Assembly (NCBI GenBank): GCA_012513435.1
Contig: JAAZCE010000026.1
Coordinates: 62,001-126,000 of the forward strand
Direction of reading: 5' to 3'
Origin: Clostridiales bacterium
GTDB taxonomy: Bacteria > Bacillota > Clostridia > Peptostreptococcales > Anaerovoracaceae
Length of the DNA: 64,000 nt
The first letter of the stretch is position 1; every line of letters starts with the position of its first letter. The translations under genes and the position numbers were made by a program. The notes beneath the pieces were generated by a model. It ran no database searches, was not told the DNA's origin, and worked only from the letters and a program-made list of their open reading frames with translations. Positions 29,099 to 50,486 of this stretch are shown here, one piece after another.

Positions 29099-29854
29099 TT
29101 ATGCATCTATTTCCAAAACTACGGGACAGTGGTCGCTGCCGAGGACGTCAGTCAGTATCTCCGCCTTCTCCAATTTGTCATTCAGTGCCTCCGACACGAG
29201 AAAATAGTCGATACGCCATCCTGCGTTGTTAGCTCTTGCGTTAAACCTATAGCTCCACCATGAATAGACACCTTCTTTATCAGGATAAAAGTATCTGAAG
29301 GTATCTGTAAAGCCCGCTGCCTGTAGCTCCGTCATCTTATCTCTTTCTTCATGGGTAAAGCCTGCATTCTTCCTGTTGGTCTTGGGATTTTTTAAATCCA
29401 GCTCCCTGTGAGCTACGTTAAAATCGCCACAGGTTATCACTGGCTTTTTCGCTTCCAGCTTTTTAAGGTATGCGCGAAAATCATCCTCCCAATTCATTCT
29501 GTAATTCAACCTCTTAAGCTGATCCTGAGAATTAGGCACGTAGACGTTGACAAGATAGAAATCCTCATACTCTGCGGTTATCATCCTGCCCTCGTGGTCA
29601 TGCTCGTCAATCTCCATTCCATAGGTAACGCTTACAGGCTCCCTTTTCGTAAACACAGCCGTTCCCGAATATCCCTTTTTGTCAGCTGAACACCAATATT
29701 GATGGTAGCCTTCAAGAGGCACCTCTGCCTGGCCCTCCTGCATCTTGGTCTCCTGTATACACAGGATGTCCGCCTCCGCTTCCTTTGCAAAGCCAAGAAA
29801 ACCCTTGTTCATGGCTGCCCTTATCCCGTTTACATTCCACGATACTAATTTCAT
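29099..29854 (-). CDS. exoA: Exodeoxyribonuclease III
   Basis: A 251-residue AP endonuclease/3'-exonuclease of the ExoIII family, acting in base-excision repair. Family motifs are in order: SWNVNGIRAA, CIQETKMQ (metal Glu), VYVPNSQD, GDFNVAHRELDL, YSWWSYRFNARANNAGWRIDYFL and LGSDHCPV with the catalytic Asp-His pair. Length is normal. Its start overlaps the stop of the EcfT-phosphatase fusion by four bases, and pdaA follows 55 bases later. Confidence 0.95.
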   Translation of the reverse strand: MKLVSWNVNGIRAAMNKGFLGFAKEAEADILCIQETKMQEGQAEVPLEGYHQYWCSADKKGYSGTAVFTKREPVSVTYGMEIDEHDHEGRMITAEYEDFYLVNVYVPNSQDQLKRLNYRMNWEDDFRAYLKKLEAKKPVITCGDFNVAHRELDLKNPKTNRKNAGFTHEERDKMTELQAAGFTDTFRYFYPDKEGVYSWWSYRFNARANNAGWRIDYFLVSEALNDKLEKAEILTDVLGSDHCPVVLEIDA

Positions 29855-31623
29855 TTTGTTATCTTGAAGCTGTCCACCAGCTCCCCTCCTTCTTTAAAAA
29901 CCTTGAATTCAATCTTATCTTTTGCCACCTTCACGTCAGAATACGTAGGCAGGTCCTGATAAAATTCTTTTACATAATTCGGCAACTTTATGCTCTCTTT
30001 CACGTAATTACTGGCCTTATTGCCGGAATTGCTCATTACATATGTGATGCCCTTTATAGGCTCTGTTCTCATATAGACGTGCTGATGACCGCACAGCACA
30101 AGGTCCACGTGGTTATCAGCAAATATCTCCTCCCAGTTGCTTCGCAGCTCCCTGTACAGCTCATCGTCCTCTGCAACAGGGTACATAGGGTGGTGCATGT
30201 ACGCTATTGTCCACTTGGCCTGACTTTTTTGTAAATCCTGGGCAAGCCATTTATTTATGGCTTCTACTGTGTCCTCGTATCCCTCCTCGCTCTTTCTCTC
30301 CTTCATGAAAAGGCAGCTGTTGAGAGCTACAAAGTGGCACTGCCCGTAATCAAAGGAATAGAATTCTTCAGGCAAAGGGCTGTCTTCGGGCAAGACCATC
30401 ATCTTCAGGTAAATCGTCGGCCTTATGGAAGTCTCGTGGTTTCCCACCGTGGTCATCATAGGTATTCTGGAAAAAACCGGCTCTCCGTTTGCAAATAAGG
30501 CATCCCAGTCATCTGTCTCCGAGGGCTTGTCCACCATGTCTCCTGCAAATACGCCAAAGGCCGCGTCACTGTTATCCTGATATGCGGCTTTTATCATATT
30601 CCCCCAGGCTCCATAGTCTCTGTCCCTAAGCTTGTACTGTATATCGCCTATGTAAAGAAATTCAAATTCCTCAGTCTCCTCGCCTCCTGCAGTAAATCTG
30701 CTTTTGGCGCTCATTTCCTTGCCGTCTCCCACAGAATACTCGTAATCCTTGCCGTCCTTAAGGTCCTCAAGAACAGCAGTATATCTGTAGTATCTTCCTT
30801 CTCTCACTTCGGTACACTGAGCCTTGAATTCTTTGCCGTTACATTCTACTATGCCATTATATTCTTCCTGGCTGCTCCAGGATATGGACACGGCGTTTTC
30901 TCCCATTATGGATATTGCTGCCTGTCTGTCCATAACGCCGTCTACTGGGTTATAATGAGCAGCAAATACGAAGGCAACTGCTAACACCGGTGCGGCAATA
31001 AGGATTGCAGCATCTCTTTTTTTCAGTTTCAATTTCCTCATATATGTTCTCTGGTTATATGCTCTGAACCCTCTGGCCTCCATAGCCACAGAGGTATCCT
31101 TAGCTCTTTCCAGCGCTCCTGCCAAAATAGGCATACATATACGCCTGAATGCCGTCAACTTATGCCTTACAGAGGTTCTTCTCAGCTCCGTGCCCCTCAG
31201 CTGTATACTGTAATACACGTCAAGGGCTTCCTCCCGCAGTATAGGAAAGAAGTGAAAGGCCAGCACAACCATATAAGCCAGCTCATAAGGCATCCTGCAC
31301 TGTATCAGAGCGAGCAGATAATCTCGCATCTGTCCTGTAAGCAATATCATGGCTGACATGATGATTATCAGAAGCCTTACTGCCAGCAGTGCGCCTAAAT
31401 ATATATTGCCAAAGGCAGCCTGGAGTATGAACAGGAATACCACCATTCCCACAGCACCCATAAGCTGCTTCTTCAAACAGACAAAATCAATTTTCCCTAT
31501 GAGCATGATAGCAACAGAAAGCAGGAGAAGTCCCACCAGCCAGCTAATCTTATCAACGAACATAGCGGCTCCGGATATGGCTATAATCATCATGATTCTC
31601 GTTCTGGGGTCAAGATTATTCAT
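29851..31623 (-). CDS. Fusion of ECF transporter EcfT subunit and purple-acid-phosphatase-like domain
   Basis: A 590-residue fusion. Residues 1-225 are an EcfT/CbiQ protein: membrane helices in the first 125 residues, then a cytoplasmic coupling region with both Arg-Gly motifs, LRG at 142-144 and ARG at 183-185, then a last helix (205-222) preceded by KLKLKKR, which puts what follows outside. Residues about 230-312 look like the fibronectin-like domain of purple acid phosphatases; 322-520 carry metallophosphatase motifs GDIQ (326-329), GDMVD (361-365), GNHE (394-397), MHHP (476-479) and GHQH (512-515). It overlaps the second ATPase gene by eight bases and exoA by four. Confidence 0.85.
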   Translation of the reverse strand: MNNLDPRTRIMMIIAISGAAMFVDKISWLVGLLLLSVAIMLIGKIDFVCLKKQLMGAVGMVVFLFILQAAFGNIYLGALLAVRLLIIIMSAMILLTGQMRDYLLALIQCRMPYELAYMVVLAFHFFPILREEALDVYYSIQLRGTELRRTSVRHKLTAFRRICMPILAGALERAKDTSVAMEARGFRAYNQRTYMRKLKLKKRDAAILIAAPVLAVAFVFAAHYNPVDGVMDRQAAISIMGENAVSISWSSQEEYNGIVECNGKEFKAQCTEVREGRYYRYTAVLEDLKDGKDYEYSVGDGKEMSAKSRFTAGGEETEEFEFLYIGDIQYKLRDRDYGAWGNMIKAAYQDNSDAAFGVFAGDMVDKPSETDDWDALFANGEPVFSRIPMMTTVGNHETSIRPTIYLKMMVLPEDSPLPEEFYSFDYGQCHFVALNSCLFMKERKSEEGYEDTVEAINKWLAQDLQKSQAKWTIAYMHHPMYPVAEDDELYRELRSNWEEIFADNHVDLVLCGHQHVYMRTEPIKGITYVMSNSGNKASNYVKESIKLPNYVKEFYQDLPTYSDVKVAKDKIEFKVFKEGGELVDSFKITK

Positions 31624-32254
31624 AAACCTTCTCCATAGCTACCACTTCATCGCAGTATGTCCTTATAAATTCAGCATCGTGACTGATGATTATGACCCCG
31701 CAGTCCAGCCCCTTAAGATGTTCCCCCAAGAAAGCCCTTCGCTTTAGGTCCAAGCTTGCCGTAGGTTCATCGAGGATAAGATACTTTGGCTTCATGGCAA
31801 GTATTGCCGCCAGCACAAGCCTCTGCTTTTCTCCGTGACTTAGAAGAAATGGAAAGCTCTTTCTATAGCTTTCCATACCAAAATACTCAAGGTATTGGGT
31901 AGTCCTCTTTTCCCTTTCCTCCTGAGAAAGCCCCAGATTTTTTAACCCGTAATCTATTTCTTCCTCCACTGAGGAGGAAAATATCTGTCTTGCCGGATTT
32001 TGCATTACATAGCCTATGAGCCTGCCTCTCTCCGCCAGGGTCTTATCCTTCATATTTTCTCCGTCAAGAATGATTTCTCCCGATTGAGGCTCCAGTATGC
32101 CCATAATAAGTCTCGACAGAGTGGTCTTGCCAACTCCGTTCCTCCCCGTAAGGGCCGTTATTCTGTCGCCGGAAAATTCAGCGGAAAAGTCGTTTATGAT
32201 TTTGTTGCCGGTATTTTCATAGGAAAATACCAGACTCTCTATTATCAAGCTCAT
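31616..32254 (-). CDS. ECF transporter ATP-binding protein (EcfA2-like)
   Basis: A 212-residue ABC ATPase. Walker A is GRNGVGKTT (37-45), the Q-loop is VMQNPARQIF, Walker B is YLILDEP (158-164) and the H-loop is IISHDAEF. The signature is LSHGEKQ (138-144) where the standard form is LSGGQ. It is shorter than the 270-290 residues of most EcfA proteins and lacks their carboxyl extension. Its start overlaps the stop of the first ATPase by four bases and its stop overlaps the EcfT fusion by eight, so three subunits of one importer are encoded together. No substrate-binding S subunit is nearby. Confidence 0.88.
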   Translation of the reverse strand: MSLIIESLVFSYENTGNKIINDFSAEFSGDRITALTGRNGVGKTTLSRLIMGILEPQSGEIILDGENMKDKTLAERGRLIGYVMQNPARQIFSSSVEEEIDYGLKNLGLSQEEREKRTTQYLEYFGMESYRKSFPFLLSHGEKQRLVLAAILAMKPKYLILDEPTASLDLKRRAFLGEHLKGLDCGVIIISHDAEFIRTYCDEVVAMEKVYE

Positions 32255-32949
32255 ATATATTTCTTCACCTTTTCCGGAGCTCCAAAGGCCTTGACTTTAC
32301 CGTCCTCAAGGAGTATCCATCTGTCCGCATCTTCAATGAGCCTATGGTCATGTTCTACAATAATAATAGTTTTACCCCTCAGCTTTAACCCACGAATTAT
32401 ATTGGTCAAGCAGCTCTTGTACTCCTCGTCCAAGTGGCTGAAGGGTTCATCTAATATTATTACCTCTGGGTCCATGGTTAGTATTGAACCTATGGCTACA
32501 AGCTGTTTCTGCCCGCCGGAAAGCTTGTTTGGATTCTCTTCTCTGATTTCTTTCAACCCCAACAGCTCCAGCACTTCATCTACTCTTTCTCTGACTTTTT
32601 TCGGTTCAAGACAAAGGTTTTCCGGGCCAAAGGCCAGCTCGTCCTCCACCGTTGAGGTGACTATCTGTCTATCTGGGTCCTGCATGACGAAGCCTACGGT
32701 TTCGGCCAGGTCCTTCATTTGGCAATCCCTAAGGTTCTTATCGCAGAGGTTTATCTGTCCCGATACCACTCCCCCTACTGCGTTGGGAATTATTCCACAC
32801 AAAATATGACAAAGGGTGCTCTTGCCAGATCCTGAATCTCCCAGAAGTCCCGTTATCGATTCCTCCTCTATGGAAAAATCTATTCCATTGAGAATGGGTT
32901 TATTTTCATCATATGAAAATGTTAGGTTCTTTACATTAATAATATTCAT
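32251..32949 (-). CDS. ECF transporter ATP-binding protein (EcfA1-like)
   Basis: A 232-residue ABC ATPase with standard motifs: Walker A GDSGSGKST (37-45), Q-loop VMQDPDRQIV, signature LSGGQKQ, Walker B VIILDEP and H-loop VEHDHRL. VTSTVEDELAFGPEN is typical of the CbiO/EcfA type. It is the first gene of the leftward operon, upstream of the second ATPase and the EcfT fusion. The pair would power uptake of a vitamin or metal through an S subunit encoded elsewhere. Confidence 0.88.
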   Translation of the reverse strand: MNIINVKNLTFSYDENKPILNGIDFSIEEESITGLLGDSGSGKSTLCHILCGIIPNAVGGVVSGQINLCDKNLRDCQMKDLAETVGFVMQDPDRQIVTSTVEDELAFGPENLCLEPKKVRERVDEVLELLGLKEIREENPNKLSGGQKQLVAIGSILTMDPEVIILDEPFSHLDEEYKSCLTNIIRGLKLRGKTIIIVEHDHRLIEDADRWILLEDGKVKAFGAPEKVKKYI

Positions 32950-34923: not shown

Positions 34924-37900
34924 ATGAAACGAAAACTCTCTATTGCAATATTTACCCTTATGCTTATTCTTTTGGGCACATCAGCCTCTTTCTTTACCGA
35001 AGGAGCATATGCCGCCCTTCCCGACGATGACAACAACGAAATTACCTTTCCTGCACCTGATAACAAGGATGCCGGCGATGAACCTCCCGAGGATGCCTTG
35101 TTCTGGGTAACTACGGAAACCTTAACACCTAATTACGACAATAACCCTTATGATGTATCCACATATGGCATCAATACCCAGCTGCTTATAAACAAACCCG
35201 GAGATTACTATCTTAAAGGTGTTAGCACTAATGTTTTCGTTACCATCACCTCAGGGGGAGTTAATCTCTATCTCCAGGACGGACTGGTTATCGATCCCTT
35301 CGCAGGGGCCAATGTAGGGGCAGCGACGCCTGCTATTGATATCAAGGATCAGGGCGGCGAAGTGAAAATTATTACCTGCGCTGGTGCTAAATGTGCTCTT
35401 AGAGGATACTTCAGCGGAACAATCAGGAAAAACGGCACCAATACCAAGCTTACCTTTGCTACTGCAGGCACTTCAAACAGCGGGTACCTTCGCGTTGTCG
35501 GTGGTAGGGGCTTTGGAGATGCTGCCATAGGCAGCGAAACAGGTAAATCCACGGGGAATATTTTCTTTGAAAGCGGCCAGTGGAGAGTTGAACCCAGATC
35601 AGGCTCAAGTATAGGCGCAGGCGCAGACGGATCTGTTGATGGAATAACCTTTAACGGTGGGGCCGTAACGGCATTTGGAACAACGGATGAAAGATTCACT
35701 TATCCCCTGGGCACCGCTGCCATCGGAACTGCAGGAGGCCCTAATACCTGCGCAGATAATATCGTTATTAACGGCGGTACAGTTAAGGCCACAGGAGGAA
35801 GTGCCAACTTCGGCTATTACTGCGGAGCCGCTATCGGAGGCGGTTCCTACAGCTCTGTGGGTACTATCACTATTAATGGCGGAAATGTAAGGGCCAATGG
35901 GGGCAACACCAATCACGGTGGTGCCTCCGGTATTGGCGGAGGCAACGACTGTCCCAGCACAAAGCAAATAAAAATTAACGGAGGCTCCGTTAACGCCACC
36001 GGAGGAAATTCCTGTGACGGAATAGGCGGAAGCAGTACTGGCAATGTAACTATTACAGGGGGAAGCGTAACAGCCAGAGGAGGTGCTAACGGAGCACTCC
36101 CTAGCTGTGGATCAGGCATAGGAGCTCGCGGCTCTATTGTTATCACAGGAGGAAATGTTACGGCTACAGGCGGATCCGGAGGCATACGCGGCGGCGGCCA
36201 AGGCATTGCTTCAGGAAACGTAAACATTTCAGGGGGCATAATAAAAGCAACCGGTAGTGATAGAAATTCCGGGGGCATAGGCCACGGTGGAGGAACCCTA
36301 TCCATAAGCGGAGGAACTATTATAGCCAGGGCTTCAAGTGGAGGCAAGGATCTCGCCCACGGCATGAACAATCTATATATTTCAGGTGGTACAATCAATG
36401 CCTCCTCATGGGGAGCCACGCCATATAATAAGGCCGATGGCGACGAGGTATATAAGACAGCAGTAACCCTTGAAGACTATGATACTAGCAGCAGTGGTAA
36501 AGCTACTAATGCTCTTGCTCAGGCTCTTACCGTCAAAGACCTATCTTATGATTACGGCCTTGATGATGTATATGGAAGAAATGCGAACGGCAACGACGGC
36601 AAGTCCTACTTTTTATTCCTTCCGGAAGGTAATGCGGTTACTACACTTCAGGCGAATGATAATGGCAGCGTTCCTGCCACCAGCACTACCTATGGAGGCT
36701 ACATAGAAACAACCTCTGATCATACGGCTGAAGGCACTCTCTACCCTGCCGACAAGCTTATTTTGACTGCCGGAGAAGGTGGAACCAATGGCTCAGCCCT
36801 AGCCTCATACCTGCAATCAGAAGCACAAAGCTTTGTTCCTGCAACAAAGACAGGATATGTAGTTACAGGCTATAGTTTTGATATGGATGGAAAGGACCTT
36901 CTTCTTGGTAACGAAGGTCGCTTTTATAAAAGCGTTAGCTATGGTGACAAAATTTACACCGATAAAGACGGTAAATATCAAAAATCGGATAGCAGCTCCA
37001 ATGCGGATATTCCCCTCTACGCTCAATACATAGCTGCCACTTACGATGTGGTATTCGATAAGAACCTGCCTGACGATGCCAGCACCAAAAGCGCAGCAAC
37101 AGGCACTATGCAAAATCAGAAAATGATCTATGGTGTTTCTGCAAATCTCAAGGCCAACGCCTATGCCTTGCCGGGATATAATTTTGCAGGCTGGAATACC
37201 GAGGCAGATGGCAGTGGAGCAAGAAGCTATAGCGATGAATACTCTGTCAGTAATCTTACATCAGAGGACAAAGGCCATGTGACGCTCTACGCCCAGTGGA
37301 CACCCAAGACCTACAGTGTCATATTTAATAATGGCGATTCATATGCTACAGGCACCATGGACCCTATCACATTGACCTTTGATAAACCTGTCTCACTTCC
37401 GCCTAACATCTACAGCCTAACTGACAAGACATTCGCAGGCTGGAGCAGAGGCGCTTTGGGGTCATTATATAAGAACGAAGCTACAGTATGCAATCTATGT
37501 GGCAAGCCTTACCTTCCCTCAGTTACCCTGACAGCTCAGTGGGCAGAAGAAGACTCTGTTACAGTTATCCTTACCGATAATGGCCAGCCTGTTAAAGCTG
37601 CAAAGGATCTTATCAAGCTTGAAAAAGATGAAACAAAATTTGGCGGCTTCACAGGAACCGATGGCATATATACAGTCAAAAATATAGCCACAGGCACCTA
37701 TGATGTGATTCTGGACGGAGCTTTATCAGGTTACAGCACGGAAGGCAAAACTGTAACAGTAGCAGACAATACAGCATCACTAGTTCACCTAGATTATGCC
37801 ACTGTTGAAATCAGCAAGGAGAATGAATTCATTACAGATACCTGGATAGAAGACCCTGTATCGAAAAAACCTGTAACCGAGCTTCTCCACCAGCCTATAG

Positions 37901-38922
37901 GTAGTCAGCTCAAAATAGGTTCTACTACGGCAGATGGCTACAGCTTTGAGTCCTATACAGCCCTCCTCAATGATCCGGTGTGGGAGAATGATGATAACAC
38001 AGAACCTAATCAAACCATAACCATAACCGGAGAAACCATCATAGAGGCTCACCCTACGGCTAATCTATATAAGCTTTCATTTGACAAGAATGCTAATGAT
38101 ACGATAGGTTATATGGATAATCAGGATATGGTATACGACGAGCCTCAGGACATAAGCAAATGCCGCTTTACCCGCCCCGGATATGATTTTAAGGTTTGGA
38201 CACTCACTGACAAATGGACCGGTACTGAATATAAGGACGGAGAAAACGTAACAAACCTCACTGATGTTAAGGATGCAGTAGTCAAGCTTTACGCACAGTG
38301 GGATTCTCAGCCATATTATATACATTTTGACGATAACGGCTCACATGGACTTATGCTGAACCAGAAGCTATTCCATGACACTGCAAGCAAGCTTAGTAAG
38401 TGTGAATTCGAGCTGGAGGACTGGCACTTCGCAGGCTGGAATACTCAGTCAAACGGCGAAGGAAAATCCTACGGCGATGAAGAAGAAGTTACCAATCTTA
38501 CAAACAACATGAATGAAACAGCCACCCTATATGCACAGTGGGAGCACGATACCTTTACTCTAAGCTTCAACGCCAACGGAGGTGAGGGATCCATGGACCC
38601 TCAGGATGTTTGGACCAACTCAGGCTACCCAATGCCCCTCTGTGATTTTACAAAAAAGGGCTACAGCTTTACGGCATGGAACACCAAGGCCAATGGTTCG
38701 GGAACCTCTCTTAAAGCCGGGGATGTGGCAGACGATCTTGCTAAAAACGGTGAGACAGCTACAGTCTATGCTCAGTGGGAAAAGAACCCTGACGGCGGAG
38801 ATAAGCACGACAATGGAACCAACACAGGGGACAGCCGCAACATACTCCTGCCGATTATCCTGATAATATTGGGAGCTGTGGGAATCATCGCATCAGCAAT
38901 AGGCATCAGAAGGAGAAAATAG
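34924..38922 (+). CDS. Large secreted surface protein with Gly-rich repeats and InlB/Flg_new-type repeats
   Basis: A 1332-residue protein with a signal peptide (1-30). Residues about 160-510 carry many turns of an INGGTVxATGG-like repeat, probably a right-handed beta-helix. Residues 705-873 and 1048-1287 hold five Listeria-Bacteroides/InlB B-type repeats, each ending GWNTxxxGxGxxY..LYAQW. A segment at 877-950 (TGTDGIYTVKNIATGTYDV) looks like a carboxypeptidase-regulatory-type domain. The carboxyl end, NTGDSRN followed by a hydrophobic helix (about 1304-1325) and RRRK, is like a sortase or plain membrane anchor, but no standard LPXTG is present. Likely an adhesin or matrix-binding protein; the ligand is unknown. 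It stands alone. Confidence 0.8.
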   Translation: MKRKLSIAIFTLMLILLGTSASFFTEGAYAALPDDDNNEITFPAPDNKDAGDEPPEDALFWVTTETLTPNYDNNPYDVSTYGINTQLLINKPGDYYLKGVSTNVFVTITSGGVNLYLQDGLVIDPFAGANVGAATPAIDIKDQGGEVKIITCAGAKCALRGYFSGTIRKNGTNTKLTFATAGTSNSGYLRVVGGRGFGDAAIGSETGKSTGNIFFESGQWRVEPRSGSSIGAGADGSVDGITFNGGAVTAFGTTDERFTYPLGTAAIGTAGGPNTCADNIVINGGTVKATGGSANFGYYCGAAIGGGSYSSVGTITINGGNVRANGGNTNHGGASGIGGGNDCPSTKQIKINGGSVNATGGNSCDGIGGSSTGNVTITGGSVTARGGANGALPSCGSGIGARGSIVITGGNVTATGGSGGIRGGGQGIASGNVNISGGIIKATGSDRNSGGIGHGGGTLSISGGTIIARASSGGKDLAHGMNNLYISGGTINASSWGATPYNKADGDEVYKTAVTLEDYDTSSSGKATNALAQALTVKDLSYDYGLDDVYGRNANGNDGKSYFLFLPEGNAVTTLQANDNGSVPATSTTYGGYIETTSDHTAEGTLYPADKLILTAGEGGTNGSALASYLQSEAQSFVPATKTGYVVTGYSFDMDGKDLLLGNEGRFYKSVSYGDKIYTDKDGKYQKSDSSSNADIPLYAQYIAATYDVVFDKNLPDDASTKSAATGTMQNQKMIYGVSANLKANAYALPGYNFAGWNTEADGSGARSYSDEYSVSNLTSEDKGHVTLYAQWTPKTYSVIFNNGDSYATGTMDPITLTFDKPVSLPPNIYSLTDKTFAGWSRGALGSLYKNEATVCNLCGKPYLPSVTLTAQWAEEDSVTVILTDNGQPVKAAKDLIKLEKDETKFGGFTGTDGIYTVKNIATGTYDVILDGALSGYSTEGKTVTVADNTASLVHLDYATVEISKENEFITDTWIEDPVSKKPVTELLHQPIGSQLKIGSTTADGYSFESYTALLNDPVWENDDNTEPNQTITITGETIIEAHPTANLYKLSFDKNANDTIGYMDNQDMVYDEPQDISKCRFTRPGYDFKVWTLTDKWTGTEYKDGENVTNLTDVKDAVVKLYAQWDSQPYYIHFDDNGSHGLMLNQKLFHDTASKLSKCEFELEDWHFAGWNTQSNGEGKSYGDEEEVTNLTNNMNETATLYAQWEHDTFTLSFNANGGEGSMDPQDVWTNSGYPMPLCDFTKKGYSFTAWNTKANGSGTSLKAGDVADDLAKNGETATVYAQWEKNPDGGDKHDNGTNTGDSRNILLPIILIILGAVGIIASAIGIRRRK

Positions 38923-46475: not shown

Positions 46476-48026
46476 TTATTTTAAATCTCCTGCGGCCTTT
46501 ATCTTTACCCTGTTGGTATTGCCTGGGTAATACTGAAGTGGAACATCCTCAACATCTATAATCTCGATGGTTTCTCTGACGGCTCCCGCATCAGCAGCGG
46601 CTTTTATTGCCTCCTCCTTGGCCTCCTCAAGGGCAATTTCTCTTGGAGTACTATCATAGTCTATAAGCTTTTCTACTATTCCGCTCACCTTAGATATAGC
46701 AGAGCCTATGGCATTAGCTGTGCCAAAGAATTCAGGCTTAATCACCGAGGCAGCACCCTCCAAATCCTGAGGAAGGGCAATGGAACCGCCGCCTACCAAG
46801 ATAACGTCCACATCTGCACTGGAAACCTTCATAGCGTCTATAGCGTCTTCCGCCAAAGACCTGATTGCGGCCATTGCCTTCTCTGCGAAGTCTTCTTTCA
46901 AGTGCGCAACTTTTTCCTTATCGCCTAAATCAAACATGCTCAATCTTACTGCAATATCCGTTGCGGTTATAGTGTCGCCTCCGAATATCAGCGCCTTCTT
47001 CATTATTTCATAGCCGACACTGTCAGGTCCCACAGTTACGGTGCCATCGCTTTTTTCTCTTACTATGGAGCCTCCGCCCAGCCCGATGGTTACAACATCA
47101 GGCATCCTGAAGTTAGTTCTCACGCCGCCTATAGTTGCCGCAATACTGGACTCTCTTGGGAATCCATTCTGTATTACACCAAGGTCTGTAGTTGTGCCGC
47201 CAACGTCTATTACAAGAGCATTCTCCAGCTTAGAAAGATAGCTGGCCCCTCTTATGGAGTTGGTCGGCCCACAGGCTATGGTCAGTATAGGATAACGTCT
47301 GGCATGATCCATAGTCATCAAAGTCCCGTCATTCTGAGAAAGATATATATCGGCATCGGTTATTCCCATCTCCGCAAGGGATTTAGCAAACCCTTCTGTA
47401 AAGCTCTCGGCCACATGAAACAGGGCCGCGTTGAGTATTGTCGCGTTCTCTCTTTCGATAAGTCCCATAGAGCCTATTTCACTGGAAATAGATATGTGTA
47501 CATCCTCGCCCATAACTTCGCGACATATTTCCGCAGCTCTTAGCTCATGCTCGTTCCTTACGGTAGAAAACACACATGAAATAGCAATGGATTCCACCTT
47601 GCCTCTAACTTCTTCAAAGAATTCTTTTATTCCATCCTCGTCAAGGGCTGTAAGCTCTTTGCCGTCGTATTCAAAGCCGCCTCGGACTATAGTGCTCGCA
47701 ACTACCGTTCTCCGTATGTCCTCTTCCCAGTCAACCATGGGAGGCACGCCTACGGTGGCAGGAGCTCCTATCCTCATCATCGCTACATGAGCAAGATGCT
47801 TTCGCTCCACGATAGCGTTGGTACACTGAGTTGTCCCCAGCATTGCCTGGCTTACATCCTTAGGATTTACTCCTGATTGTGACAATATAGTTCTTATAGA
47901 TTCCACTATACCGTCATATATGTCTGCTGATGTAGGGCTCTTTATCTCCGCTACCACATCGAGACTTTCATTTATCAGTACAGCATCCGTATTAGTTCCG
48001 CCTACATCTATACCAAGTTTATACAT
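46476..48026 (-). CDS. Hydantoinase/oxoprolinase family protein (HyuA-like)
   Basis: A 516-residue protein of the hydantoinase A/oxoprolinase family, ATP-dependent amide-ring hydrolases with an actin-like fold. Nucleotide motifs are GIDVGGTNTDAVLI at the start and VIDVGGTTTDLGV near residue 275; GLGGGSIV and VILVGGGSIALP follow. The domain corresponds to HyuA alone; no HyuB gene is adjacent. The ATG at 48026 has AAAGGAGG eight bases upstream. It overlaps the end of the DUF917 gene by eight bases. Substrate could be a hydantoin, 5-oxoproline or other cyclic amide. Confidence 0.85.
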   Translation of the reverse strand: MYKLGIDVGGTNTDAVLINESLDVVAEIKSPTSADIYDGIVESIRTILSQSGVNPKDVSQAMLGTTQCTNAIVERKHLAHVAMMRIGAPATVGVPPMVDWEEDIRRTVVASTIVRGGFEYDGKELTALDEDGIKEFFEEVRGKVESIAISCVFSTVRNEHELRAAEICREVMGEDVHISISSEIGSMGLIERENATILNAALFHVAESFTEGFAKSLAEMGITDADIYLSQNDGTLMTMDHARRYPILTIACGPTNSIRGASYLSKLENALVIDVGGTTTDLGVIQNGFPRESSIAATIGGVRTNFRMPDVVTIGLGGGSIVREKSDGTVTVGPDSVGYEIMKKALIFGGDTITATDIAVRLSMFDLGDKEKVAHLKEDFAEKAMAAIRSLAEDAIDAMKVSSADVDVILVGGGSIALPQDLEGAASVIKPEFFGTANAIGSAISKVSGIVEKLIDYDSTPREIALEEAKEEAIKAAADAGAVRETIEIIDVEDVPLQYYPGNTNRVKIKAAGDLK

Positions 48027-49122
48027 TTGCCCCACCTCCTTTGTATCTTTTTTCTACCGGAATGTACTCCGTATCGCATCCAAAGTATCTGGGCCCTACA
48101 AGCTCAAGGCCTTTCTCTGTACGCCACATTTCAAAGCACTTTAGCCCCACTACATATACGCGTTTCCCGTATTTAAGGGCATCTGTGGTTATAGGAGAAA
48201 AGGTTTCCGCATCCACCAGGCAAATAAGGTCAGGCACGGTTGCCAGTATCTGCCCATCCACATTTGCCAGCAGGTTTTCATTCTGAAATTCCACAAATGC
48301 TTCCTTTCCTTTATAGTCTCCTATTCCTTCAAGCATTACCTTGCCGAAGTTAAATGCTCCTCTTGTCTCTCTGAGAACGTCGGATATTTTTCCCTTAAAG
48401 AGCTTATACCCTTCGGAAAACTTTAAAAAATGCTCTTCCGGCGTTATATCATCTGTATGTTTTTTTACGGTGCGTATTGCCTCTCCCAACTTCTGACTTC
48501 TTGTAACGATATTCTTTACACCGTACTGCTTAAGCTGCTTTCCAGTCATAGGATAAAGGGCAACTGAAACCGCCCCTCCGCAGCTCATGGTAACAGAACG
48601 GGCAAGCTCCTCCGTCCACTTGTTGGAAATAGTCTTGTAAAGTACGCTGTTTCCCTTTTCATCGGTCAAAGCCATAGGGCATGAATTTATGCCTCCAATG
48701 GTAAAGGTCACCATCTGCAGCTCTGGAAATGCTCTTCCCATTCCGTCTGCATCCACAAGAGGCAATCCCAGATGGGCGCAGGCAGCTATAGGCAGCATAG
48801 AATTTACACCGCCTGCTTCTATGGGAATAACCGCATCTATCTCCTTACCCATGAACTGGGATACCATATCCCTAAGCGTATCGTATTCCTTTTCACCTAC
48901 TGCTTTTTCTGCCAGAACCGTAGGGGCCCCCATCATAGCAATTGCTACTATAAGTGCATCGTCGGCCACTTCCTCAGGCTCTAACAACGTCACCGGTCCA
49001 TTTTCCTTTATGGCTCCCATAGCCACAAGTTTCCCTATATAAGGGTCTCCGCCTCCCCCTGCACCAAGCAGCGCAGCTCCCAAAGCTATATCTTCAATTT
49101 CCTTTATATCTAGTTTTCGCAT
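48019..49122 (-). CDS. DUF917 (S-methyl-thiohydantoin desulfurase-like) protein
   Basis: A 367-residue protein of the DUF917 family. Recognisable parts are the amino-terminal GAALLGAGGGGDPYIGKLVA, IPIEAGGVNSMLPIAACAHL with DADGMGRAFPELQM, and TVPDLICLVDAETFSPITT near the end. Family members occur beside hydantoinases, and one branch is annotated S-methyl-thiohydantoin desulfurase; the reaction here is not known. It lies 23 bases after the permease gene and overlaps the HyuA-like gene, so the three form one operon. Confidence 0.85.
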   Translation of the reverse strand: MRKLDIKEIEDIALGAALLGAGGGGDPYIGKLVAMGAIKENGPVTLLEPEEVADDALIVAIAMMGAPTVLAEKAVGEKEYDTLRDMVSQFMGKEIDAVIPIEAGGVNSMLPIAACAHLGLPLVDADGMGRAFPELQMVTFTIGGINSCPMALTDEKGNSVLYKTISNKWTEELARSVTMSCGGAVSVALYPMTGKQLKQYGVKNIVTRSQKLGEAIRTVKKHTDDITPEEHFLKFSEGYKLFKGKISDVLRETRGAFNFGKVMLEGIGDYKGKEAFVEFQNENLLANVDGQILATVPDLICLVDAETFSPITTDALKYGKRVYVVGLKCFEMWRTEKGLELVGPRYFGCDTEYIPVEKRYKGGGANV

Positions 49123-49145
49123 ATCTTATGATCCTCCTGTATCGC

Positions 49146-50486
49146 CTATTTTGCCATAGCTGTCGCTTCTTCTATGGTCATTTCTCCCTGTCCTATCATC
49201 TTCGTATTCTTCAAGAGATTATAAAGAACAATGTACACTACAAAGGCTATTATTACTCCGTCAAGCGCGGCACTGAACACCGTTATAACCCCCAGTGTTT
49301 CGAGCAGTGCGAATACGCCGCTGCATACCCAGGCAATTATTCCCACCCAGCTTATACCACGCTGAGGCTTCCAGTTGTCCTTGTTGCCTTTGCAGATTAC
49401 CCAGTAATCTGCAATGATGATGCCCATTATAGGCGGAACAACTGCCCCGATAATGCTGATATATGTATTCAGTGCATCTGCCAGTCCCATAATTGCCAAT
49501 ATGATTCCTAGCACTCCTACTATCATTGTTACCAACGGGCGTTTCTTGTCCTTTATGGAAAACATCTTGCACATTGCCAGTCCCGACATATATGCATTGC
49601 CTGTATTGGTCGTCCAGGTTGCAAGCACCAGAACCAGCATGGATAATATAGGCAGTCCAAGTCCGGCAAACATACTGGTAACATCATAGCTTCCTGTGCC
49701 TAGTGCCATGATAGCACCTACCATAATCATTATTGTTGCTGCCGGCAGTACTCCCAAAACCGTAGCCCTTATAACATCACCCCTTGACTTGCAGAAACGC
49801 GTATAATCAGAGTTGCAGGTTGCACCCAGGGCAAAGAGTCCTATTACAGTTGATACCGCCGCAGGGATGGCCATCGCATTGGTGGTTACCGTATCCGTTA
49901 TAGTTCCCCAGCCAGCTGTATTTATGGAATGTACCGCACCATAAACGCAGAGTATTATCAGCAGCGGCACTGCAATATAGTTCAGCACCGACATCCATTT
50001 AACGCCGTATACTGCGGTCACACACATTACCGCTCCCCACAAAACGCAGGCTAACCAAAACGGGAAGTTCACACCCATGATTTGCATCAGAGTGTTAAAG
50101 GCCAATGCACAGGTTGCCGTCTGAACCGCGAACCACCCTGTCTCCGCTATGAATACAACAAGAGCCATGGAAAAGTTCGCTCCCATCATTCCAAAAGCTC
50201 TGGTCGATGTCATTGTAGCGTTAAGGCCCAAGTCGCTTCCTATTATCCCACCTAATACCATAAGCAAACAGCATATAGCGAACCCAACAACCGTTACCCA
50301 GAATATAGATGTAACGGTAAGGGCTCCTGCAAATATGCCTCCCACCATGAGCATAGGTATGCATATCATCGTTCCTATCCATATGAAAGCTACGCTTCCC
50401 CATGAACGTTTCTCTTCGGGCAAAATCTGAGATATGCCCTTGTCCTGTTTCGCAGCTGTATTCGTTGTTGCTTTGTTTTCTTCCAT
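49146..50486 (-). CDS. NCS1-family nucleobase/hydantoin permease (CodB-like)
   Basis: A 446-residue, 12-helix carrier. The amino end (SWGSVAFIWIGTMICIPML), the TM3 segment TRAFGMMGANFS, and ADYWVICKGN between helices 9 and 10 are those of the NCS1 cytosine/purine/hydantoin family. The genes after it, for DUF917 and a hydantoinase, favour a hydantoin or cyclic ureide over cytosine; there is no cytosine deaminase nearby. It is the first gene of the leftward operon, divergent from a PucR regulator across 245 bases that likely hold both promoters. Confidence 0.88.
   Translation of the reverse strand: MEENKATTNTAAKQDKGISQILPEEKRSWGSVAFIWIGTMICIPMLMVGGIFAGALTVTSIFWVTVVGFAICCLLMVLGGIIGSDLGLNATMTSTRAFGMMGANFSMALVVFIAETGWFAVQTATCALAFNTLMQIMGVNFPFWLACVLWGAVMCVTAVYGVKWMSVLNYIAVPLLIILCVYGAVHSINTAGWGTITDTVTTNAMAIPAAVSTVIGLFALGATCNSDYTRFCKSRGDVIRATVLGVLPAATIMIMVGAIMALGTGSYDVTSMFAGLGLPILSMLVLVLATWTTNTGNAYMSGLAMCKMFSIKDKKRPLVTMIVGVLGIILAIMGLADALNTYISIIGAVVPPIMGIIIADYWVICKGNKDNWKPQRGISWVGIIAWVCSGVFALLETLGVITVFSAALDGVIIAFVVYIVLYNLLKNTKMIGQGEMTIEEATAMAK

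Follow-up and report, generated by a model that had tools for sequence, protein, structure and literature searches.

An EcfT subunit fused to a phosphatase, and its possible place in the uptake of preformed molybdenum or tungsten cofactor

YkoEDC of Bacillus subtilis is an energy-coupling factor (ECF) importer with a dedicated module, in which YkoE carries hydroxymethylpyrimidine (HMP)/thiamine. Here we analyze a window of 64,000 nucleotides (the whole stretch of contig JAAZCE010000026.1 that was studied, from a Clostridiales bacterium), in which the transmembrane (T) subunit of an ECF importer, EcfT, is fused in one gene to a phosphatase, and we consider whether the importer may serve a preformed cofactor.

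For the molybdenum cofactor (Moco), the prevailing view in 2022 was that cells needing it must make their own, the exception being a nematode, a worm that obtains the cofactor from dietary Escherichia coli (PMC9793310; statements from papers cited by PMC number refer throughout to the passages cited). Moco uptake by E. coli was treated as unrealistic in a metabolic-model paper (PMC3423039), and the list of 'coenzyme uptake' in the cited passage of PMC3766115 is without Moco. Outer-membrane proteins of the type 11 secretion system (T11SS) of Proteobacteria were suggested, from gene co-occurrence, for the uptake of cobalamin or molybdopterin (PMC12282271). The genes placed under control of the RF01055 riboswitch, which senses Moco or the tungsten cofactor (Tuco), are molybdate transporters, cofactor synthesis genes and cofactor-using enzymes, a cofactor importer not being named in the cited passages of that work (PMC2408646).

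The EcfT–phosphatase fusion

The fusion of EcfT with a purple acid phosphatase (PAP)-like phosphatase is certain. It is a single stop-free frame of 590 codons (31623..29851, minus strand, as are all coordinates of this gene), and the reading of this frame in the initial annotation as EcfT joined to a metallophosphatase was borne out by Pfam and motif checks. The EcfT part (residues 1-222, 30958..31623) gave a CbiQ/EcfT match over residues 8-194 with 71 bits against a Pfam cut-off of 25. The phosphatase part (residues 224-590 and the stop, 29851..30954), delimited by Pfam, the solved-chain match and the alignment of fusions, contains a Metallophos catalytic domain (residues 322-517, 30073..30660; 57.8 bits, cut-off 21.5), preceded by a match to the PAP N-terminal domain Pur_ac_phosph_N (residues 242-311, 30691..30900), which at 26.9 bits lies under the cut-off of 30. 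The nearest solved chains by sequence were EcfT chains (E 4e-11) for the former part and a plant-type PAP (E 6e-9) for the latter.

Both Arg-Gly coupling motifs and all five metal motifs that the initial annotation had claimed were located. The coupling motifs are R143-G144, within L-R-G (142-144, 31192..31200), and R184-G185, within A-R-G (183-185, 31069..31077). The metal motifs of the metallophosphoesterase fold are GD326-327 (30643..30648), GD361-362 (within GDMV, 361-364, 30532..30543), GNHE394-397 (30433..30444), H477 (of the HH pair 477-478, 30190..30195) and GHQH512-515 (30079..30090). Motif II reads GDMVD, without the tyrosine ligand that makes true PAPs purple. Since this tyrosine is missing in all five fusions known to us, we class the domain as PAP-like.

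The two parts meet at a hydrophobic helix (residues 205-223, 30955..31011; Kyte-Doolittle 2.34). A joining helix after a KLKLKKR segment had been proposed, and a helix is indeed there; in alignments with solved EcfT and with free EcfT relatives, however, it matches EcfT's own last membrane helix and is not an added linker. EcfT has five transmembrane helices and a three-helix coupling domain, which contacts the ATPases from the cytosolic side (PMC4820897), hence the segment after its last helix should be outside. The charge distribution agrees, with 18 K/R and 7 D/E in residues 128-202, and 40 K/R and 65 D/E in residues 223-590. The helix therefore appears to lead outward and the phosphatase domain likely faces the exterior, as had been supposed from the sequence.

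The fusion was found in five genomes of three genera, all of one family (the window genome and those designated G009, G215, G326 and G363). In a set of 61 genomes, comprising the window genome and 60 relatives, the G009 fusion was recovered; it is 61% identical over residues 1-589 and again lies behind EcfA1 and EcfA2. Three more came from 393 order-level genomes (G215, G326 and G363), whereas a genus set of 49 genomes held only those of the window genome and G009, and a class-level set of 391 genomes none beyond the window genome's own; outside the family, no fusion turned up in the order- and class-level sets. These sets overlap and were searched at E-value limits of 1e-3, 1e-20, 1e-15 and 1e-22, so that a divergent fusion could be missed. 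Neither a stop or frameshift at the join nor a solitary occurrence, both named beforehand as what would speak against the gene, was found. An assembly or gene-calling artefact, for which the 109 contigs of the assembly and its contamination estimate of 7.41% could be cited, was rejected and deserves practically no credence, because the same join is kept in four separately assembled genomes.

The metal motifs are kept in the alignment of all five fusions, although the G215 protein has lost most of the PAP N-terminal domain while keeping the catalytic domain, and the EcfT part of the G363 copy is cut by a contig end. The fusions form one clade in each of two trees, that of EcfT (support 99/94, 40 rows) and that of the phosphatase (support 85/88, 21 rows), so a single fusion event suffices. 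Between the window and G009 copies the proportion of differing silent sites is near saturation (pS 0.76-0.91) while that of replacement sites is low (pN 0.20-0.38; pN/pS 0.24-0.41 across four regions of the fusion), which argues for purifying selection on both halves.

The fusion is the third gene of an EcfA1-EcfA2-EcfT unit. The EcfA1-type ATPase (232 aa, a short form; 32251..32949, minus strand) scored 101 bits to ABC_tran and 213 bits to ECF_ATPase_1, under the equivalog cut-off of 315, and is 63% identical to its G009 homologue; the EcfA2-type ATPase (212 aa; 31616..32254, minus strand) scored 108.7 and 169 bits, the latter again under 315, and shares 4 bases with EcfA1 and 8 with EcfT. 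With its EcfT domain, coupling motifs and two co-encoded ATPases, the gene qualifies as an ECF T subunit.

Conserved operons, riboswitches and cofactor genes

To describe the module in relatives, 42 loci (41 picked by an EcfT match and one by a match to the substrate-binding, S, subunit) were scanned with profiles of 13 gene groups; 16 belong to the window's family and 26 lie outside it, and 17 class-level loci had not been used to build the profiles. The relatives keep together S, the two ATPases, T, sulfite-oxidase-fold proteins, MobB, a kinase, and a secreted phosphodiesterase or a phosphatase. At least one sulfite-oxidase-fold gene is present in 37/42 loci. Among the 17 class-level loci, 15 have S, 16 MobB, 16 the kinase, 14 a PF01663-type secreted phosphodiesterase and 1 the phosphatase. 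Three of the loci come from named public assemblies; one (L036) has the whole gene set and two (L034 and L035), cut by contig ends, have part of it. MobB occurs in 25/26 loci outside the family versus 5/16 inside, and the kinase in 24/26 versus 2/16; in operons of the window's clade, the position that the kinase has elsewhere is often taken by an NTPase_1-type protein.

The phosphatase is found in 11/16 family loci versus 1/26 outside, and the secreted phosphodiesterase, which is unrelated to it, in 2/16 versus 22/26. Strict mutual exclusion of the two was rejected (phosphodiesterase alone in 22 of the 42 loci, phosphatase alone in 10, both in 2, neither in 8). The presence of two unrelated ectoenzymes in one slot nevertheless suggests that the cargo is what they act on. 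It also makes it unlikely that the domain is a general phosphate-scavenging ectoenzyme for which EcfT is merely the membrane anchor, with no role in import. That explanation draws on 14 additional loci that encode a same-family enzyme and, over the stretch examined, neither S nor EcfT nor a sulfite-oxidase-fold protein, on account of which the domain could be a general phosphatase; 7 of these stretches span only ~4 kb, one has ExbB and NTPase_1, and one is in the window genome itself (G000:C104). The earlier suggestion that a phosphatase tied to an ECF importer could act on the cargo at the mouth of the transporter gains support from the fusion and from its probable outward side.

Riboswitches link the operons of relatives to Moco. 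Outside the family, 21 of the 26 genomes have RF01055 no further than 15 kb from the module, where 1.23 would be expected from riboswitch counts and genome sizes (P ~4e-25 if the genomes were independent, which related genomes are not), and so do 12/17 class-level genomes (0.80 expected). Inside the family it lies within 15 kb in 1/16 (G062) and within 20 kb in 2/16 (also G366). In three genomes, phosphatases of the same family as that of the fusion are encoded behind it. In G366 it stands upstream of S, A and T, ahead of a same-strand run of longest open frames that continues through the phosphatase to S and the ATPase; in G393 it heads a run that includes an ABC transporter, two MoeA proteins, a ThiF protein, the phosphatase and sulfite-oxidase-fold proteins. 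In G060 an 856-aa protein is encoded ~300 bases downstream of it; this protein combines Metallophos, SLH and, at 23.8 bits (just under the cut-off of 24), the sulfite-oxidase fold PF00174. The sole RF01055 match of the fusion genome G326 (45.4 bits, cut-off 36) adjoins a cluster of ExbB and sulfite-oxidase-fold genes. The scanned stretches also gave single matches to S-adenosylmethionine (SAM), NiCo, cobalamin and T-box riboswitches. Separately, a yjdF (azaaromatic) riboswitch was seen near the moa genes of the window genome (L155, 13563-13687, minus strand), and that contig also gave a match to Group II intron D1-D4-7 (L156, 9738-9848, minus strand).

The initial annotation had found no S subunit nearby. 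This is true of the 64-kb window, but S lies in the operon in 35/42 loci, and a profile search of the window genome (G000) detected one S-type PF09819 protein, with AxxxA at residues 37 and 41, on another contig (C46, 7355-7714). S-type PF09819 proteins were present in 23/25 genomes tested, and the S proteins elsewhere are 38-59% identical to that on C46. The seven S-less loci are those of G009 and G363, in whose genomes the PF09819 search returned no protein; those of G376 and G044 and the second locus of G062, with S on another contig; and those of G567 and G779, which reach contig ends.

PF09819, the YkoE family, bears on a different reading, in which the importer carries another vitamin (HMP/thiamine or a flavin) and the phosphatase strips the vitamin's phosphate. 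The family also matches in B. subtilis, and FMN (flavin mononucleotide)-binding proteins occur in many of the operons. However, no thiamine pyrophosphate (TPP) or FMN riboswitch reached gathering score in the scanned stretches, compared with many Moco riboswitches, and the PF09819 scores of the S proteins are 38-65 bits (56.9 for that on C46, over the cut-off) against 122 for the G404 copy; two S proteins that were searched against NCBIfam matched no model. We therefore regard a vitamin cargo of this kind as rather improbable. The thiamine phosphates, pyridoxal phosphate (PLP) or FMN proposed in the initial annotation have likewise become less likely, given that homologous operons are tied to Moco by RF01055, MobB and proteins with the molybdopterin-domain fold.

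The S gene on C46 is surrounded by four PF00174 matches and by ExbB-type, DUF2149, MobB, NTPase_1-type and DUF364 genes; no EcfA or EcfT was found in the 20 kb read around it. About 19 kb beyond this cluster are genes reading as modABC, a MoCF-domain gene, MOSC, mogA, moaC and moaA (MoaC, MoaA and MoCF backed by family search, the rest by reading). In G009, homologues of the C46 genes (PF00174, ExbB and a gene for a protein of 561 aa) stand ahead of EcfA1-EcfA2-T-phosphatase in one run, which suggests that the window operon and the C46 cluster are halves of one split system and that the C46 S protein may pair with the window's EcfA-EcfT module. In G326 and G215, S is fused to a PF00174 domain, so that both membrane subunits carry an extra domain there.

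The sulfite-oxidase-fold proteins look more like binders than enzymes, because the molybdenum-binding cysteine is mostly replaced. In an alignment of 51 single-domain proteins, serine stands (30/51) in the stretch that holds the molybdenum-binding cysteine of the enzymes, and any cysteine within 30 residues before the invariant glycine occurs in only 6/51. A search of solved structures with two of the proteins gave no useful match. If they were instead secreted oxidoreductases that depend on the cofactor and work with FMN-binding partners, the riboswitch would govern cofactor consumers and the ECF module would serve another ligand of the redox chain. Genes of the FMN_bind and RnfD types do adjoin operons (some by reading only), and cysteine is found elsewhere in many of the proteins (after residue 35 in 40/51, at one C-terminal column in 22/51). 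The replaced cysteine, the near-constant MobB and kinase outside the family and the place of the ECF genes at the operon core make this quite unlikely. As a separate observation, ExbB-type genes lie among lipoprotein or surface-layer-domain genes at L113 3458-4379 (with DUF2149), L063 1851-2480, L079 17946-18581 and L068 3158-3805; such clusters suggest a TonB-like motor in single-membrane cells.

Searches for cofactor synthesis genes came up empty in most fusion genomes. MoeA_N was found in none of the five, versus 16/20 other module-bearing genomes; MoaA and MoaC were not found in 4/5, versus 3/20, and in 4/5 fusion genomes all three were missing from the search results. As the completeness of the fusion genomes is 83-100% and they are related to one another, this is suggestive and not proof. 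G326 and G363 encode a formate-dehydrogenase-type protein with an in-frame TGA, beside genes reading as selA and selB, and thus have a cofactor enzyme without genes found for making its cofactor. A search for molybdenum enzymes, confined to PF00384, gave nothing but the shorter type in G215 and no protein in G009. At L157 7701-17263 (plus strand), a formate-dehydrogenase-type gene with an in-frame TGA is followed by genes reading as selA, selB and selD.

Three further features were noted in the window. The start of an exonuclease/endonuclease-type gene (29099-29854, minus strand) overlaps the stop of the fusion, and the two may be co-transcribed. Adjoining the operon is a gene for a 1332-aa protein with Listeria-Bacteroides repeats and beta-helix repeats (34924-38922, plus strand), which reads as having a signal peptide and a C-terminal anchor. 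Further on, at 46476-50486 (minus strand), one run of genes, judged by reading only, seems to encode a hydantoinase-like pair together with a permease of the cytosine/purine type.

A proposed cofactor importer and known systems

To our mind the evidence tips, somewhat beyond even, toward an importer that is dedicated to preformed molybdenum/tungsten cofactor and uses its outer phosphatase to trim this cargo. The window gene would be the T subunit of this importer, with its PF09819 S subunit encoded on another contig of the genome. As suggested by the gene content, secreted, lipid- or wall-anchored sulfite-oxidase-fold proteins without the molybdenum-binding cysteine may catch the cofactor outside the cell, and the phosphatase, held to the membrane by the last helix of EcfT, may then remove a phosphate or attack the nucleotide tail. 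Since either of these confers high charge, the less charged pterin could enter the S subunit more easily. The ATPases would drive release inside the cell, where a kinase or P-loop protein, together with MobB, might rebuild the active cofactor.

Several observations weigh against this proposal. Its main weakness is that RF01055 was found beside none (0/13) of the operons of the window's EcfT clade; in that clade the cofactor is therefore only a probable cargo, on grounds of homology with operons elsewhere. MobB and the kinase are rare inside the family, the S gene of the window genome is unlinked to the window operon, and G009 and G363 returned no S protein at all. The window genome keeps MoaA and MoaC, and its single PF00384 protein, of 1169 aa, may or may not bind the cofactor. 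The 14 phosphatase loci apart from importer genes count here as well, as do two AlphaFold predictions, made from few sequences, whose confidence (pLDDT) was only 41 and 46.

It seems about an even call whether the operons represent a widespread and unrecognised bacterial uptake of preformed molybdenum/tungsten cofactor, combining a surface relay, two classes of ectoenzyme, ECF import and rebuilding by MobB and a kinase, with the trimming enzyme joined to the transporter in the fusion clade, most of whose hosts do not make the cofactor. If true, such an importer would turn the cofactor into a resource that anaerobes share, and auxotrophy and cross-feeding would become testable. The fusion would be an importer bearing its own cargo-processing enzyme, a design not met in the open full-text literature searched (PMC; subscription papers and preprints lie outside this scope), where neither an ECF Moco importer nor an EcfT–phosphatase fusion was among the matches listed.

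Several known systems share parts of the one described here. With the RF01055-controlled genes (Regulski 2008, PMC2408646; passages cited) it has in common the aptamer family, which lies beside the relatives' operons. The T11SS proteins provide an earlier suggestion of bacterial molybdopterin uptake, but act at the outer membrane and, in the passages cited, involve no ECF importer or phosphatase (PMC12282271). The ECF heme importer of Staphylococcus lugdunensis (PMC7299338) resembles the proposed importer in having a large metal cofactor as its cargo, and differs in the cargo itself and, as far as the cited passages go, in having no phosphatase. The phosphatase part resembles PAPs and calcineurin-like phosphoesterases in its N-terminal domain (a weak match) and its five metal motifs, whereas it lacks the motif II tyrosine of PAPs and is tethered to a transporter. 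YkoEDC shares the PF09819 S subunit, two ATPase domains and an EcfT with both arginine motifs; in the system described here, however, S scores far below the core of its family, EcfT bears a phosphatase, and the operons of relatives, with which the Moco riboswitch is associated, also encode sulfite-oxidase-fold proteins, MobB and a kinase.

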